A stretch of DNA of 56,016 bases from Synechococcus sp. M44_DOE_062. Lineage in GTDB: Bacteria; Cyanobacteriota; Cyanobacteriia; Thermostichales; Thermostichaceae. Made by a program: the position numbers and the translations under genes. Positions 36,638-43,494 of this stretch are shown here, one piece after another. The stretch spans positions 1 to 56,016 of the forward strand of contig DVDX01000072.1 in assembly GCA_015295985.1 (NCBI GenBank), read 5' to 3'. The number at the start of each line of letters is the position of its first letter. Position 1 is the stretch's first letter. Below the pieces are notes generated by a model that ran no database searches, was not told the DNA's origin, and was given only the letters and a program-made list of their open reading frames with translations.

Positions 36638-36972
36638 CGAAAAAGTCTCCACTCACTCACACCACAGCAGATATCTTGGGCAGCGCCCGGCAGGGATCCA
36701 ACTGGAGCCTGCAAAGCAGTTTTTGCCTTTGGGATCCCGTTTGATAAGGGGGAATTGCCTGCTGTTAGTTCTACTGCATCCTGGGGCGTTGTCAACCTGC
36801 TGACGAGGCCAATCTAAGAAATTTTCTGGGAATGGCCCATCCTCTATCTGTGGTGTATCATAGCTTCGAGCAGGGATAGTAGGCCTACCCGTAGCGTCTG
36901 TGCTAGGTGCCGCTCGTTCTATTTCGTTTGTGCATGCATTTGCCTAGGTTAGGGTGTGTGAGGAAGTGGTTT
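36638..36972. other. 335-bp divergent spacer between lipoprotein genes
   Basis: No gene seen. Contains two GGATCC palindromes and an irregular patch GTAGGCCTACCCGTAGCGTC near 36880 that resembles sequence at 18631-18651 and 75-90 in its CTAC/GTAG content. It should carry promoters for both flanking lipoprotein genes; none is convincing. Confidence 0.5.
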
Positions 36973-38406
36973 ATGAGCTTTAAAAGTCGCTCCTTGGCGG
37001 TTTTGTGTGGAGTCTTGCTGCTAGGCGGCTGCGGTGAAGTCAATGAGTCCCCGACCTTGCCTGGCCCTGTCCAGGTGGATCCGGCTGCCTTTGTCTCGGC
37101 TCAAGAGTATCGCTTTACCCCTGGCTCGGTGCTGGAGACCACTAGCCTGCGGCTGGACTACGTCAATCCGAGGTTTGACAACGGGATCCCTGTGCGCACC
37201 AACCCCTTCCAAGGAAGCGGTGAGGCTCGAATTACCAATGTTGAAGCCCGGATCTTGCCTGTGAACGAGATTCCAGCTAGTGAGCTGACAATCGACTCCA
37301 CCCTTCGCTCCAGCACCCTGGCCATTCAAATTGGGCAAACCACACCGCTGGTGAATATCACTGCCTTTGGCCCCAACGACGGCAGGCTATCTACGCAATT
37401 TAATATCGCTGGGCTGGTTGCAATTTCGACCCTCCCCAACGACCAGCGCATTCGGGTGAATACCACCTTCAGAGCTACCAGAGAAGGCACCGTCTTGACC
37501 CTCACAGTGCGCCGCATCTTGGTTAGCCGGAATGGCAACCAAGTTGTACTGGAAGGAGATTCCTCGCTCATTGTCCCTACCACAGGGGTACTCTATGAAG
37601 ATCCTGGCCCTAACGGCAACCCACCAGCAGGAAGCTTTGTTAATCCTCCTCCACCTCAAGGGCCTGTCACCGCCATTCTTCAAACCGGCAGCTTCTCCGC
37701 CAGCTTTGTGGTGCGGCAGCGGGGCGTTGCGGGCGATGGCACTCCGGAGGATGCCTTGGCTCTCTTTGCCCGCCTGAACTTCCGGCCCAACCAGGCGGAG
37801 ATTGTCTATAGTCCTGCCCAGGTGGGTATGCAGTCGGTGCTGTTTGCCCCGGATCCGACTCGACCGAATATCTTGCCCAATCAGTTGGTGCGTATCCGAC
37901 GCCTGTTGAACGGTCGTGTGCAAGCGGAGTTTGACCCGGCCAACGTCAGCACAGTTCTCAACTTCGTGCAGGTCAGCCCGCCGCCGCGACCTTTCCCCAC
38001 ACCGATACCGCAATTGCCAGCTCCTGATCGTCCGGATGCTCCAACAGCCTTTGATTACTTTTTCTCCCTGCGCACGGAGCGCTCTACGGGTACCTTACCC
38101 GGCTCGCCTGTGGAAGGAAGCAACCTCGAGCCCGTTATCCTTCAAGGCATTGTGCCCACCACAGGAGATTTCGTCTTCCGCACACTGGCCGGAGCACAGT
38201 TATCAGGGCCGTTTAACCGGCTTGACATAGGGGGTAGCGTTCAAAGGGGGAACTTAAGCCTTGTCTTCGACCCAGCAACCTCTGCCGAGCGCATCTCCGG
38301 CCAGTGGTTCCTAGAACAGGAGTTCCCCACTAACAACCTTGCAGCTAGGGAAGGGAGCATTTTGATCATCCGTGGGTTTTTTGAGGGAACTGAGGTGCGC
38401 CTGTAA
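36973..38406 (+). CDS. putative lipoprotein, unknown function
   Basis: A 477-aa lipoprotein with a short basic N-region and lipobox LGGC (C20). The mature part is beta-rich: an N-terminal region with FRFT/FDNGIPVRTNPFQG-like strands, IQIGQTTPLVNI and NTTFRATREGTVLTLTVRRI. A proline-rich break lies at about 335-350 (PPPRPFPTPIPQLPAPDRP). A C-terminal domain contains FDYFFSLRTE, VILQGIVPTTGDFVFRTLAG and FLEQEFPTNN. I do not recognise a family. ATG 36973 is chosen because upstream in-frame codons precede the signal sequence without adding features. It converges on the oxidoreductase gene, 59 bp away. Confidence 0.77.
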   Translation: MSFKSRSLAVLCGVLLLGGCGEVNESPTLPGPVQVDPAAFVSAQEYRFTPGSVLETTSLRLDYVNPRFDNGIPVRTNPFQGSGEARITNVEARILPVNEIPASELTIDSTLRSSTLAIQIGQTTPLVNITAFGPNDGRLSTQFNIAGLVAISTLPNDQRIRVNTTFRATREGTVLTLTVRRILVSRNGNQVVLEGDSSLIVPTTGVLYEDPGPNGNPPAGSFVNPPPPQGPVTAILQTGSFSASFVVRQRGVAGDGTPEDALALFARLNFRPNQAEIVYSPAQVGMQSVLFAPDPTRPNILPNQLVRIRRLLNGRVQAEFDPANVSTVLNFVQVSPPPRPFPTPIPQLPAPDRPDAPTAFDYFFSLRTERSTGTLPGSPVEGSNLEPVILQGIVPTTGDFVFRTLAGAQLSGPFNRLDIGGSVQRGNLSLVFDPATSAERISGQWFLEQEFPTNNLAAREGSILIIRGFFEGTEVRL

Positions 38407-38465
38407 TCCAGCCAGCCCGTTTGATCCCCAGCCAGGGATCCGCTCTGGCCTAGCCTTTTCATCGG

Positions 38466-40022
38466 TCAGAGTTTGGGTAGATCGCTGAGCACCACCTGCG
38501 CGCAGTTGTGGCCAGGGATCCCGGTCACTCCGCCTCCTGGGTGTGCCCCTGAACCGCAGAGGTAAAGGCCGGGAATGGGGGATCGATAGTCGGCCAGGCC
38601 GGAGATGGGCCGCAGGTTGTAGCTTTGATCCGGCGTCATTTCCCCGTGAAAAATGCTGCCCCCCACAAGGCCGAAGCGGGCTTCTAGATCCACGGGCGAC
38701 AACATCTGCCGCGCGATCACGGCGTTTTTAATGTTGGGGGCAAATTGGGCAATCTTGTCGATCACCCGATCGGCAAATTCCTCCCGTAGGCCATCGTTCC
38801 AGTCTCGCCCTTTGGGTTGGTAGGGCACAAATTGACAGAAACAGGAGAGGATGTGCTTGCCTGGGGGAGCCATTGTCGGGTCGGTGGGGGATTGGCTGTA
38901 GATCTCGATAAACGGATCCCGGGAAGGGATCCCGTATTTGCAGTCATCCCAAGCCCGCTCCAGATAAGCCACCGAGGGGGCAATATCCACTGTGGCAGAG
39001 CTGACAACTTCTGGGGGCACTTCAGCAGGGGCCGCTGTGTAGCGAGGCAATTCTTCCAAGGCCAAATTGAGCTTGTACACCGGGCCTGAGGTGCGGTAGT
39101 GCCGCTCCAGCCGGTCGCGCAAGTCTGGGGGCAAAGGGGAGCAGAGCCGCAAAAAGGTGATCTGGGGATGAGCATTGGAGAGAACTGCCCGCGCCCGCAC
39201 GGTTTCCCCCGATTCAAGGACGACTCCAGTGGCTTGCCCACCTTCAATCAAGATCTCCGCTACTGGAGCGGAAGTGCGGATCTCCACCCCCAAGTCCAGA
39301 GCTGCTTTGGCCATGGCCTGGGTAATGGCCCCCATCCCACCACGCACATAGCCCCAGACCCCACGTGAGCCAATGGCCCGACCCACCGCATGGATTAGCC
39401 AAATGTAGGGCGTACCCGGAGTCATCGGCCCGGCTGAGGTGCCGATCAAAGATTGGGGAGCCATTGCCGCCTTGACTTGCTCCGACTCAAAGAATTCATC
39501 CAAAAGATCGGTGGTTGAGAGAAGCATGATGCGGCGGAAATCGTCTTCATACCCGGCGGCTGCAAAGCGATCCGCCAGTTGGCCCAGTGAAATCGGCGGC
39601 TGCATCAAGGTTGGCTCCACCACCTCGCTCACCCGATCCCAAAACTCCTCCCAGCGGTCGTAGGCTTCCGCATCTTTGTGGGAAAACTTGGCAATTTCCG
39701 CCTTGCTCTTGGCCCGGTTATCGGCATACAGGAAGAGGTGCCGCCCATCCGGGAAGGGCATGAAGTAGGAAGGTTGCTTGGCGTAGACCTCAAAGCCATA
39801 GTCCGGCAGGCGCAGATCGCGGATGATCTCCGGTCGCAGCAAACTACAGGAATAGGAAGCCACCGACACGCGAAAGCCTGGATGAATTTCTTCCGTAATG
39901 GCAGCCCCACCAACGGTGTGATAGCGCTCCAGCACCAGCACTTTTTGCCCCGCCTTAGCCAAATAGCAAGCGCTCACCAGCCCGTTGTGCCCGGCCCCAA
40001 TCACCACTGCGTCGTAACTCAA
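38466..40022 (-). CDS. phytoene-desaturase-like FAD-dependent oxidoreductase
   Basis: A 518-aa flavoprotein of the phytoene dehydrogenase/CrtO/PYROXD2-like group. The N-terminal dinucleotide-binding motif is VVIGAGHNGLVSACYLAKAG (G9, G11, G14), with E32 at the end of strand 2, then GG in TVGGAA. The middle part contains GTSAGPMTPGTPYIW and GGMGAITQAMAKAALDLG. The C-terminal FAD motif is PGLYLCGSGAHPGGGVTGIPG. These enzymes saturate, desaturate or ketolate polyene lipids; the exact carotenoid or other substrate is not deducible. It is the only gene of the window with a possible pigment role besides psaAB. It is not next to other carotenoid genes. Confidence 0.88.
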   Translation of the reverse strand: MSYDAVVIGAGHNGLVSACYLAKAGQKVLVLERYHTVGGAAITEEIHPGFRVSVASYSCSLLRPEIIRDLRLPDYGFEVYAKQPSYFMPFPDGRHLFLYADNRAKSKAEIAKFSHKDAEAYDRWEEFWDRVSEVVEPTLMQPPISLGQLADRFAAAGYEDDFRRIMLLSTTDLLDEFFESEQVKAAMAPQSLIGTSAGPMTPGTPYIWLIHAVGRAIGSRGVWGYVRGGMGAITQAMAKAALDLGVEIRTSAPVAEILIEGGQATGVVLESGETVRARAVLSNAHPQITFLRLCSPLPPDLRDRLERHYRTSGPVYKLNLALEELPRYTAAPAEVPPEVVSSATVDIAPSVAYLERAWDDCKYGIPSRDPFIEIYSQSPTDPTMAPPGKHILSCFCQFVPYQPKGRDWNDGLREEFADRVIDKIAQFAPNIKNAVIARQMLSPVDLEARFGLVGGSIFHGEMTPDQSYNLRPISGLADYRSPIPGLYLCGSGAHPGGGVTGIPGHNCAQVVLSDLPKL

Positions 40023-40070
40023 AAGACTTTCTCCCGCTTTGATATCCTTCCCACTCTACCAACCCACAAG

Positions 40071-40103
40071 AAAAACGGATCCCCTAGCCAAGCTAAGGGA
40101 TCC
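40071..40103 (-). terminator. intrinsic terminator built from two GGATCC palindromes
   Basis: GGATCCCCTAGC (40077-40088) and GCTAAGGGATCC (40092-40103) form a 12-bp stem with one mismatch and a 3-nt loop. On the minus strand it is followed by five T residues (40075-40071). It would end the transcript of the AT-rich two-gene unit. Both arms contain the overrepresented GGATCC. Confidence 0.75.
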
Positions 40104-40163
40104 CAAAATAATAGGGATCTCGTTTAAGTTTAGTGCAATGGATTAGATCAACGGCTTTCACCT

Positions 40164-40613
40164 TTACACTGTTTTACTGTTTTCAGATCTCAAGATCTCC
40201 CAGAAAGTACCGAACACTTTATAGGCAGGATACAGTAGAAGGAGTGCTAATATACGCCAATGGCCGTCACTCAAAATAACATTGAGTGGACAACGGCAAA
40301 ATATCACCCAGAAAGCCACTATGGAAATGAGGGGAGTTGAAGCAGATACAATTGATTTTGAGTGTCGATGGTTCCAGTGTTGTGAGAGCTTATCTAATCC
40401 CCAAGATATCAGGTCAGGAAAAAGGAGAGCAATAAACAGGCACCTCAGAAGTGAGGGATCTTGAGGAAATCCCACAATCCAAAGAACAAAGCCTACAGTA
40501 GCAATACTTAAAGCAGTAATTGCTGAGCTGTAAAACAATCTTTTTGCAGGTATTAACAAAAAGTTGACTAGCTTCTTCAGGCTTACATTGGTTCTTGATA
40601 CTGAATCTGACAT
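40164..40613 (-). CDS. small multi-pass membrane protein, unknown function
   Basis: A 149-aa integral membrane protein with about four hydrophobic segments: about 29-48 (SSAITALSIATVGFVLWIVG), 56-72 (LRCLFIALLFPDLISWG), 89-105 (STPLISIVAFWVIFCRC) and 118-135 (WRILALLLLYPAYKVFG). ATG 40613 is preceded by a strong AGGAGGAGTAAGG ribosome-binding site, so the gene is real. It starts 23 bp after the stop of the upstream small secreted protein, and a terminator follows. The DNA is visibly AT-rich and poor in GGATCC compared with neighbours, which suggests foreign origin. I recognise no family. Confidence 0.8.
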   Translation of the reverse strand: MSDSVSRTNVSLKKLVNFLLIPAKRLFYSSAITALSIATVGFVLWIVGFPQDPSLLRCLFIALLFPDLISWGLDKLSQHWNHRHSKSIVSASTPLISIVAFWVIFCRCPLNVILSDGHWRILALLLLYPAYKVFGTFWEILRSENSKTV

Positions 40614-40636
40614 TCCTTACTCCTCCTACTTATACC

Positions 40637-41065
40637 TTAAAAGGGACTTAATAGATCTACACAAAATGCAGTTGCGGCTCCCACGGCACAGCTAGCAAAA
40701 AGTCCTTCTAAGGTTAAAGGGCGTCTGTTAATGTAAGAGTCAAACGTATACCTACAGCCTCCACCAAAGGCTCCCAAACACATTGCAGTATATGGATGAT
40801 TATGAGGGAAGACTCTACCAACTCTCTGTTCTTCAAGTGTTGGATCGTTCTCAGCTTGCGGCGTTAAAGATAAATCGTTCCAAATTGGTTCAGAGAAGGA
40901 GAAATTTAAACTATTGCTAGTACTGCTAGCTGGTAAGGAGAGAAAGTTCTGCTCAGGGACAAGAGCTACAGGGTTACTTGCATCCGCACAACTGGATCCC
41001 AGTGCCATTAGAGCAGCAACGCATAGACTCCTAAATGCACTCTTACTGATGTAAGCAGTAAGCAT
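40637..41065 (-). CDS. small secreted Cys/Gly-containing protein, unknown function
   Basis: A 142-aa protein with an N-terminal signal (FRSLCVAALMALGSSCADA). C26 is a poor lipobox, so signal peptidase I cleavage after ADA (residue 29) is as likely. The mature part is Asn/Ser/Pro-rich to about 80. A C-terminal section of about 45 residues has four cysteines and a small-residue hydrophobic patch (CLGAFGGGCRYTF ... FASCAVGAATAFCVDLL). That C-terminus recalls short Gly/Cys-rich membrane-active peptides or Gly-zipper segments, but this is only resemblance. A GAAGGAAAG ribosome-binding site precedes ATG 41065. It forms a unit with the downstream membrane protein. Confidence 0.75.
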   Translation of the reverse strand: MLTAYISKSAFRSLCVAALMALGSSCADASNPVALVPEQNFLSLPASSTSNSLNFSFSEPIWNDLSLTPQAENDPTLEEQRVGRVFPHNHPYTAMCLGAFGGGCRYTFDSYINRRPLTLEGLFASCAVGAATAFCVDLLSPF

Positions 41066-41113
41066 AACAATCTTTCCTTCACAAATACTTGAGAAAGATT
41101 CTCATCTAGCGAT

Positions 41114-41143
41114 ACCTTACGGTTAGTTTGAGCAAAAAGTCAA
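41114..41143 (-). promoter_or_regulatory. candidate sigma-70-type promoter of the two-gene unit
   Basis: On the minus strand, TTGACT (41143-41138) is followed after an 18-bp spacer by TAAGGT (41119-41114). Predicted initiation would be about 40 bp upstream of ATG 41065. The -35 is close to consensus; the -10 is weaker. Confidence 0.5.
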
Positions 41144-41189: not shown

Positions 41190-41217
41190 TAAAAATCCCC
41201 CGCCCATGGGCGAGGGA
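41190..41217 (-). terminator. intrinsic terminator of the psaA-psaB operon
   Basis: On the minus strand, TCCCTCGCC-CATG-GGCGGGGGA forms a 9-bp stem (one G-U pair) with a 4-nt loop, followed at once by TTTTTATT. It lies 40 bp after the psaB stop codon and is a textbook intrinsic terminator. Confidence 0.9.
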
Positions 41218-41256
41218 TCCGTGCCATCTATTGACAGCTACTAACCGGGCTACAAG

Positions 41257-43494
41257 TTAGCCAAACTGGGAGGCTGTCGAGGCGATAACAAAGGCCGCAT
41301 AGGTCAACACGTAACCCACCGTGAAGTGAGCCAGACCCACCAGACGACCCTGCACAATCGACATGGCCACCGGCTTATCTTTCCAGCGGATCAGCTTGGC
41401 CAAGGGAGTGCGCTCATGCGCCCACACCAAGGTCTCGATCAGCTCTTGCCAATAGCCGCGCCAGGAGATCAAGAACATGAACCCAGTTGCCCACACCAGG
41501 TGGCCGAACAGGAACATCCAGGCCCAAACCGCCAGGTTATTCATACCGTAGGGGTTGTAGCCGTTGATCAACTGAGCAGAGTTGGCCCAGAGGTAATCCC
41601 GCAGCCAGCCCATCAGGTAGGTGGAGTTCTCGTTGAACTGGGCGGTGTTGCCGCTCCAAACCCCAAGCTGCTTCCAGTGCCAGTAGAAGGTGACCCAGCC
41701 GATCGTGTTCAGCATCCAGAACATGGCCAGGTAGAAGGCATCCCAGGCAGAGATGTCGCAGGTGCCGCCCCGACCCGGGCCATCGCAGGGGAAGCTGTAG
41801 CCGAAGTCTTTTTTATCCGGCATCAGCTTGGAGCCGCGGGCATCCAACGCACCTTTCACCAGGATCAAGGTGGTGGTGTGCAAGCCCAGCGCAATGGCAT
41901 GGTGCACCAGGAAGTCACCCGGGCCGATGGGCAGAAACAGGGATCCATTGGGATCGTTGATGGCCTGCAGCCAGCCGGGCAGCCACACGTTGCCGTAGTT
42001 GGGCCAAGCGGTAGAAGCAAGGCTGTCGGGGTTGGACAACAACACATCCATGCCGTAGATCATCTTGCCGTGGGAGGCCTGGATGAACTGGGCAAACACC
42101 GGCTCGATCAGGATCTGCTTCTCCGGCGTGCCGAAGGCTTGCATGACATCGTTGTGGACGTACAGCCCCAAGGTGTGGAAGCCCAAGAACAGCGATACCC
42201 AACTGAGGTGGGAGATGATCGCTTCTTTGTGATCCAGCACCCGCGCCAGCACGTTGTTCTTGTTGGCCTCAGGATCATAGTCCCGCACCAGGAAGATGGC
42301 CCCGTGGGCAAAAGCCCCCACCATCAAGAACCCAGCAATGTACTGGTGATGGGTGTAAAGAGCCGCTTCCGTGGTGTGATCCATGGACATGAACACGTAG
42401 GGGTTAAGGGCGTACATGTGCTGCGCCACCAGCGAGGTCACCACCCCCAGACAGGCCAGGGCCAAAGCCAACTGGAAATGCAGGGAGTTGTTGACCGTGT
42501 CGTAGAGACCTTTGTGGCCTTCTCCCAGCAGGCCCCCGAAGGGAGTGCCCTTGGGTGGGTTGTGGGCACCGAGGATCTCCCGGATGCTGTGGCCAATGCC
42601 CCAGTTGGTGCGGTACATGTGGCCAGCCACAATGAAGATCACCGCAATGGCCAGGTGGTGGTGGGCCATGTCCGTCAGCCACAGGGACTGGGTGTTGGGG
42701 TTAAAGCCACCCAAGAAGGTGAGGATGGCCGTGCCTGCCCCTTCTGCCGTGCCCCAAACATGGTTGGCCGTGTCCGGGTTTTGGGCGTAGACCCCCCAGT
42801 TGAGGGTGAAGAAGGGCTTCAGGCCCGCCGGATGGGGCAGAGTGGTGAGGAAATTATCCCAACCGACATGCTGCCCGCGGGACTCGGGGATGGCGACATG
42901 CACCAAGTGACCAGTCCAAGCCAGGGAGCTAACCCCAAACAACCCAGCCAGGTGGTGGTTGAGGCGGGCTTCGGCGTTCTTGAACCAGCTCAAGCTGGGA
43001 CGGAAGCGGGGCTGTAGGTGCAGCCAGCCAGCAAACAGAAATACCGCCGCCAACAACAGCAAGCCAATCGCGCCGGTGTAGAGATCGCCGTTGGTGCGCA
43101 GGCCGATGGTGTTGAACCAATAGTACAGGCCAGAGTAGGCCGCATTGACGGGGCCGCCGCCCCCGGGTTGGGTGAAGGCTTCCACCGCTGCCTTGCCGAA
43201 CTGGGGATCCCAGATGGCGTGGGCGATGGGCGTAACACCGGTGGGGTTGGCTACCCATTGCTCATAGTTGCCTTGCCAGGCAATGTGGAAGACGTTGCCA
43301 GAGGCCCACAGGAAGATGATCGCCAGATGGCCGAAGTGGGTGGCGAACAGCTTTTGGTAAAGCCGTTCCTCCGTCATGCCATCGTGGGTTTCAAAGTCGT
43401 GAGCGGTGGCGATGCCATACCACAGACGACGAGTGGTGGGATCGCTGGCAAGGTCTTGGCTGAACTGAGGAAAACGAGTTGTTGTGGTTGCCAT
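41257..43494 (-). CDS. psaB: photosystem I core protein PsaB
   Basis: A 745-aa photosystem I P700 apoprotein A2, with eleven transmembrane helices of the PsaA/PsaB fold. The F-X iron-sulfur cluster loop [12 protein letters not shown] is present, providing two of the four cysteine ligands. Many chlorophyll-ligating histidines are visible in [20 protein letters not shown] and HHAIALGLH. It pairs with PsaA to bind P700, the electron-transfer chain and antenna chlorophyll in the thylakoid. It begins [13 protein letters not shown] at ATG 43494, preceded by an AGGAGG ribosome-binding site. It lies 21 bp after the psaA stop in the conserved psaAB operon. Codon use and GGATCC density are lower than flanking genes. 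Confidence 0.99.

Follow-up and report, generated by a model that had tools for sequence, protein, structure and literature searches.

The stretch of DNA analysed here (the window; 56,016 nucleotides of contig DVDX01000072.1 of Synechococcus sp. M44_DOE_062, a cyanobacterium of the hot-spring type) carries psaA and psaB, both encoded on the minus strand. Two short genes that we call P1 and P2 follow psaB immediately, in the same orientation (Table 1). Both open reading frames had been predicted from the sequence, and reading it again confirmed them, together with the 23-bp gap that separates them (40614-40636) and their good ribosome-binding sites, which are of the AAGGA and AGGAGG types. The unit is as AT-rich as had been claimed: its GC content is 0.420 (42%), while the window mean is 0.585 (sd 0.035, 902-bp stretches), and it overlaps the lowest-GC 902-bp stretch (0.412 at 40021; the next separate minimum is 0.502), being the most AT-rich 0.9 kb of the window. 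The GC3 values of the two genes are 0.33 and 0.37, versus 0.80 for psaB. The presence of only one GGATCC in about 0.9 kb, which had been described as unlike the neighbours, is unremarkable, since 1519 of 5512 sliding stretches (28%) hold this hexamer 0 or 1 times; therefore, low GGATCC was rejected as a mark of foreign DNA. There are 172 copies of GGATCC in the 56-kb window (3.1 per kb), forming terminator stems, so near-identical terminators may be scattered in the genome and could act as recombination points. Positions 36907-40022 hold a gene for an FAD-dependent oxidoreductase and, in the opposite orientation, a lipoprotein-like gene.

Regulatory elements can be proposed on both sides of the unit. 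The terminator-like hairpin behind psaB is not reported by the consensus terminator scan, whose minimum loop was 3. The promoter of the original prediction is readable in the sequence; it is weak and does not appear in the output of the consensus promoter scan. At the equivalent position, the congener G005 has TTGAAC-18-TAGCCT. Just downstream of the candidate -10 lies an inverted repeat that is possibly an operator or a leader stem. This pattern has six sites genome-wide and the reversed control pattern has zero, which is no clear excess, and the idea of a regulon was dropped. As for the terminator of the unit, proposed at 40071-40103, the scan did recover a hairpin within that interval, at 40077-40103, although 1.2 such hairpins are expected in shuffles.

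Table 1. Features of the psaB 3' flank in the window, in order of transcription.
Feature	Position	Strand	Remarks
psaB (photosystem I core)	41257..43494	-	Upstream neighbour, shared anchor of the locus
psaB terminator-like hairpin (CGCCCATGGGCG core), then T-rich stretch	41195..41220	-	Read from the sequence; separates the unit from psaB
Weak candidate promoter, TTGACT-18-TAAGGT	41114..41143	-	Read directly from the sequence
Inverted repeat TGAGA-N5-TCTCA (TGAGAATCTTTCTCA)	41090..41104	.	Kept in G005 as TGAGATTATTTCTCA
P1 gene	40637..41065	-	Predicted exported Cys-containing protein, 142 aa; homolog in G005
P1 signal-peptide region, residues 1-27	40985..41065	-	Sequence reading
P1 C-terminal region, residues 90-139, Cys 96, 104, 126, 135	40649..40798	-	AlphaFold2 hairpin H90-112/H119-139
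P2 gene	40164..40613	-	Four-helix membrane protein, 149 aa; homolog in G005
P2 residues 88-119, its best conserved part: TM3 plus outer loop, SIVAFWxxFCRCPxxVILSxxHW	40257..40352	-	G005 comparison
Unit terminator: 12-bp stem GGATCCCTTAGCTTGGCTAGGGGATCC, then T run	40077..40103	-	Terminator scan
Junction: unit terminator and following 20 bp	40051..40104	-	Matches the stretch that immediately follows psaB in G004, a congener without the unit

Both genes recur in G005, where they keep their order and again follow psaB immediately, with protein identities of 37% (P1) and 54% (P2). The likely start of the G005 P1 homolog is the second ATG (L022:1036), located after AAGGAG, the mechanical ORF start (L022 1015-1035) being probably too early. 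The comparison of both copies establishes, at the sequence level, that P1 and P2 are genuine genes, inherited together and kept by purifying selection. A reading as chance ORFs, or as genes in decay and devoid of function, which the short length, the AT-richness and the lack of a family might suggest, is very hard to reconcile with these data. Both frames are kept in the congener, dN/dS is 0.30 for P2 (dN 0.34) and about 0.5 for P1 (dN 0.70, dS 1.39, which is near saturation), and substitutions by codon position are concentrated at position 3 in P2 (45/39/68) and weakly so in P1 (58/53/67). P2 is thus certainly coding and P1 very probably so, the reading as chance ORFs being largely refuted for P2 and, with dS near saturation, less strongly for P1.

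Both proteins change quickly at an ordinary synonymous divergence. Between this genome (G000) and G005, dN reaches only 0.047 in the FAD gene nearby and 0.005 in psaB, the proteins of the pair evolving about 7-15 times faster than that of a neighbour. However, the dS of P2 (1.14 by NG86, 0.83 by YN00) is close to that of the FAD gene (0.92 and 0.91, respectively), and identity at 4-fold sites is 0.59 for P2, 0.59 for the FAD gene and 0.62 for psaB.

No described family accounts for either protein. Nothing above noise was found for P1 or P2 in Pfam, NCBIfam, PHROGs, PADLOC or Rfam; no relative exists among PDB sequences, nor among the viral contigs, genome contigs, plasmids and phages searched. 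The P1 search gave one sub-threshold Pfam match, to a fungal Mediator model, and its fold search returned generic helical matches only (best E 2.4). Toxin trafficking modules (LXG, WXG, RHS, CdiA, PVC) were not found in P1 or its homolog with Pfam, NCBIfam and PADLOC, and the libraries searched hold no sequence or fold relative of P1 among known toxins, nor of P2 among immunity sequences. A profile search of 390 genomes of the class detected no carrier besides G000 and G005, and neither gene was convincingly found alone. Weak genome matches outside the genus (E 0.001-1), many of them with stop codons, were judged to be chance given the number of genomes. P1-P2 is, on these searches, an undescribed, genus-restricted two-gene family; that it is undescribed agrees with the original prediction. 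The latter had also named independent occurrence of the genes and a match to a housekeeping family as arguments against it; neither came true in the genomes and family libraries searched, both genes being present in the two carriers, the only ones known, and both absent from all other genomes searched.

Within the genus, the pair is present in two of six genomes, the other four congeners lacking both genes. The nucleotide tree of the psaB region separates G001, G000 and G004 from G002, G003 and G005, with one carrier in each clade; within the first clade, the branch that joins G000 to G004 is poorly supported. The C-terminal part of psaB is 97-100% identical among congeners. The content of the slot behind it differs in every congener examined, save the two carriers: a ferric-reductase-like gene in G003, a glycosyltransferase in G002, a lipoprotein gene in G001, and Uma2 plus a transposon in G004 (names assigned by eye from translations). 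In the G004 slot (L080 3795-6221), the Uma2-like gene is accompanied by genes for an IS607-type serine resolvase and a TnpB-like protein. The block of the FAD and lipoprotein-like genes also comes after psaB in G004, but G001 and G002 yielded no FAD gene.

On either side of the G005 unit lies one copy of a 52-bp imperfect direct repeat, made up of the psaB terminator and the bases next to it; G003, which lacks the unit, carries just one counterpart of this repeat. G004 also lacks the unit, and its psaB is immediately followed by DNA that matches the part of the window beyond P2 (54 columns, 81%, E 5e-7). The flanks in G003 and G004 both give the impression that the unit was lost, or is absent, and that the break fell at a terminator. 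Since P2 has diverged at synonymous sites as much as an ordinary gene has between these two species (G000 and G005), the pair probably goes back far in the genus and has been repeatedly lost, descent from the genus ancestor with several losses being the simplest history; for the same reason, a recent foreign origin is disfavoured despite the AT-richness. In a less simple history, the two carriers would each have gained the pair at this position from a related donor.

The P1 protein begins with a signal-peptide-like N-terminus, followed by a conserved neck, a variable linker predicted to be disordered, and a predicted C-terminal two-helix hairpin. The putative export signal and the four cysteines in the C-terminal 50 residues had both been anticipated; two more cysteines, C15 and C26, are located in the signal region. 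The hydrophobic core spans residues 9-27, and C26 is conserved in both carriers. The best conserved part is the neck, GSSCAD-A/V-SNPVA (residues 23-34), whose region fits the broad lipobox pattern PS51257 but fails the strict [LVI][ASTVI][GAS]C. The export neck is kept between the two copies and the putative effector part diverges.

The AlphaFold2 model of P1 has a pLDDT of about 73-83 (10-residue block means) in residues 91-140, the remainder being poor. Each helix of the hairpin carries two cysteines, and the position sums are 231 for C96/C135 and 230 for C104/C126. The modelled turn is centred at about 115.5, the centre that these pairs need. The spacing changes from CX7C/CX8C in P1 to CX10C/CX11C in the G005 homolog, where the sums are 212 and 211. 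This register is suggestive, and only that, of two cross-hairpin disulfides, C96-C135 and C104-C126, with a chance of about 0.18 per protein under a simple model. The predicted hydrophobic hairpin also shows small-xxx-small spacing, and a glycine-zipper motif, (G/A/S)xxxGxxxG or GxxxGxxx(G/S/T), occurs once per homolog (A94-G98-G102 in P1; GAAGGCVVG in the G005 protein), as it does in 10-26% of shuffles of the same 53 amino acids.

The P2 protein has four hydrophobic segments, in agreement with what had been predicted. Its charges, read by hand according to the positive-inside rule, suggest an N-in topology with both ends inside, so that FCRCPxxVILSxxHW, between helices 3 and 4, would face outside. 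The sole conserved cysteine pair of P2 is the CxC at C106/C108. The structure model of P2 was too poor for use (pLDDT 50.6) and was kept out of the fold search.

The best explanation of these features, which we hold tentatively and short of even confidence, is that P1 could be an exported effector that acts on membranes, with P2 as the membrane-bound partner that confers immunity or assists maturation; the pair would be genus-specific, ancestral at the psaB 3' flank and lost in most lineages. P1 would be exported by Sec into the periplasm or the thylakoid lumen, where it might be lipid-anchored at C26. Its terminal helical hairpin, stapled by the two putative disulfides, would insert into or disturb the membranes of competing close relatives. 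P2, located in the producer's own membrane, would bind the hairpin from the outer side and so give protection, or would aid maturation. The whole would amount to a bacteriocin-like antagonism with a cognate membrane immunity protein.

Different observations point to such an antagonism. Its basis is the patchy distribution of linked genes, the fast divergence of the effector part, the predicted exported hydrophobic hairpin and the polytopic membrane partner. The pair structure is kept in two species with neither gene alone, and the junctions of the empty sites lie at terminators. Fast dN occurs at an ordinary synonymous divergence, the export neck is kept while the effector part diverges, and both homologs have the antiparallel cysteine register along with the small-xxx-small spacing of the predicted hairpin. 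However, there are only two homologs, the libraries hold no toxin or immunity relative, the glycine-zipper matches are within chance (P 0.10-0.26), and no route of release across the outer membrane was identified for P1. Moreover, P2 is better conserved than P1 and its outer loop is the most conserved part, while immunity contact sites usually diversify. The original prediction of a secreted effector with a membrane immunity, processing or anchoring partner stands in part: patchiness, fast evolution, hairpin and membrane partner would fit an effector with an immunity protein, and the strong conservation of the P2 outer loop (CRCPxxVILSxxHW) would also fit a maturation role.

The conservation of that loop is also the starting point of the main rival, in which P2 would be a maturation or anchoring factor whose outer FCRCP does thiol-disulfide exchange or holds the P1 neck (GSSCADxSNPVA), and P1 a disulfide-stapled structural or stress protein of the envelope or lumen rather than a toxin. 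The best conserved elements of the pair are precisely the neck after the signal peptide of P1 and the TM3-outer loop region of P2 with its CxC, and the four cysteines of P1 lie in a pairable register. Nevertheless, P2 has no match to DsbB, VKOR or other oxidoreductase families in Pfam or NCBIfam, and fast evolution with repeated loss argues against a core envelope role, so that we regard this explanation as rather unlikely. In another reading, P1-P2 would be a dispensable, lineage-specific pair with a conditional role unrelated to conflict, for example in dealing with metals or redox state in the periplasm or lumen (a working of the MerP/MerT type). The patchy distribution suits such a niche function, as does the association of a cysteine-containing, putatively exported protein with a membrane protein having an outer CxC; the absence of CxxC/HMA or Mer-type family matches for either protein in Pfam and NCBIfam, and the shift of the P1 cysteine positions between homologs, unlike a metal site, make it distinctly unlikely.

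The unit might also be recently acquired cargo of a mobile element or phage, for instance a superinfection-exclusion pair. Both copies of the unit are low in GC, and the psaB slot is variable among congeners and includes the transposon of G004. However, no relative was found among phages, viral contigs, plasmids or PHROGs, the locus is the same in both clades, and the equal 4-fold identities of P2 and the FAD gene in the same species pair point to vertical descent. Recent cargo is consequently improbable.

If P1 were indeed an effector and P2 its antidote, they would constitute an exported peptide pair of thermophilic cyanobacteria that has no known relatives and that could help to explain competition among closely related mat strains. 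A more specific proposal, which we consider doubtful, is that P1 represents an undescribed family of cyanobacterial toxins, each a stand-alone hairpin exported by Sec, stapled by disulfides and encoded with a four-helix membrane partner; such pairs would serve in conflicts between near relatives of hot-spring mats and would be repeatedly lost by recombination between duplicated terminators. A merely lineage-specific envelope pair would be a routine orphan. The presence or absence of the pair beside psaB is an easy genetic marker for population tracking.

Several known systems resemble P1-P2 in some of their parts. MerP/MerT-type systems are periplasmic and membrane cysteine pairs, and resemble P1-P2, whose putatively exported small cysteine protein likewise lies beside a membrane protein with a cysteine pair; unlike them, P1-P2 lacks the HMA fold, CxxC and any family match. 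Disulfide-stapled helical hairpins of the alpha-hairpinin or CHCH kind have CX3C or CX9C spacing. As predicted for P1, they consist of two antiparallel helices with two cysteines each in matching register, but the spacings of P1 and its homolog are different, there is no profile match, and the disulfides of P1 are putative.

Two further parallels concern a possible way of working and not membership. Glycine-zipper toxin domains exported by Sec are able to depolarise a membrane from its outer side, and polytopic membrane proteins neutralise them, as in EsxX/ExiCD and TspA/TsaI of Staphylococcus; the Sec-targeted EsxX toxin domain is toxic from outside, and the membrane proteins ExiCD protect (PMC12744356). 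These systems use LXG/T7SS secretion, whereas P1 carries a signal of the Sec type together with four cysteines and a short linker; no sequence relationship is detectable, the glycine zipper of P1 is not above chance and its toxicity is putative. In common with them, P1 has a hydrophobic, helical C-terminus rich in small residues, which by prediction would reach the membrane from the outer side, and its gene lies beside one for a polytopic membrane protein. The CDI ionophores are five-helix domains that end huge CdiA proteins, unlike the stand-alone P1, and the immunity proteins that go with them form two-helix hairpins of 72-100 aa, while P2 has four helices in 149 aa (PMC11630599). Nonetheless, CDI ionophores are countered by hydrophobic helical immunity proteins in fast-diverging cognate pairs (PMC11630599), and both CdiA-CT/CdiI and P1-P2 would combine a hydrophobic helical effector with a small hydrophobic membrane partner in divergent cognate pairs.
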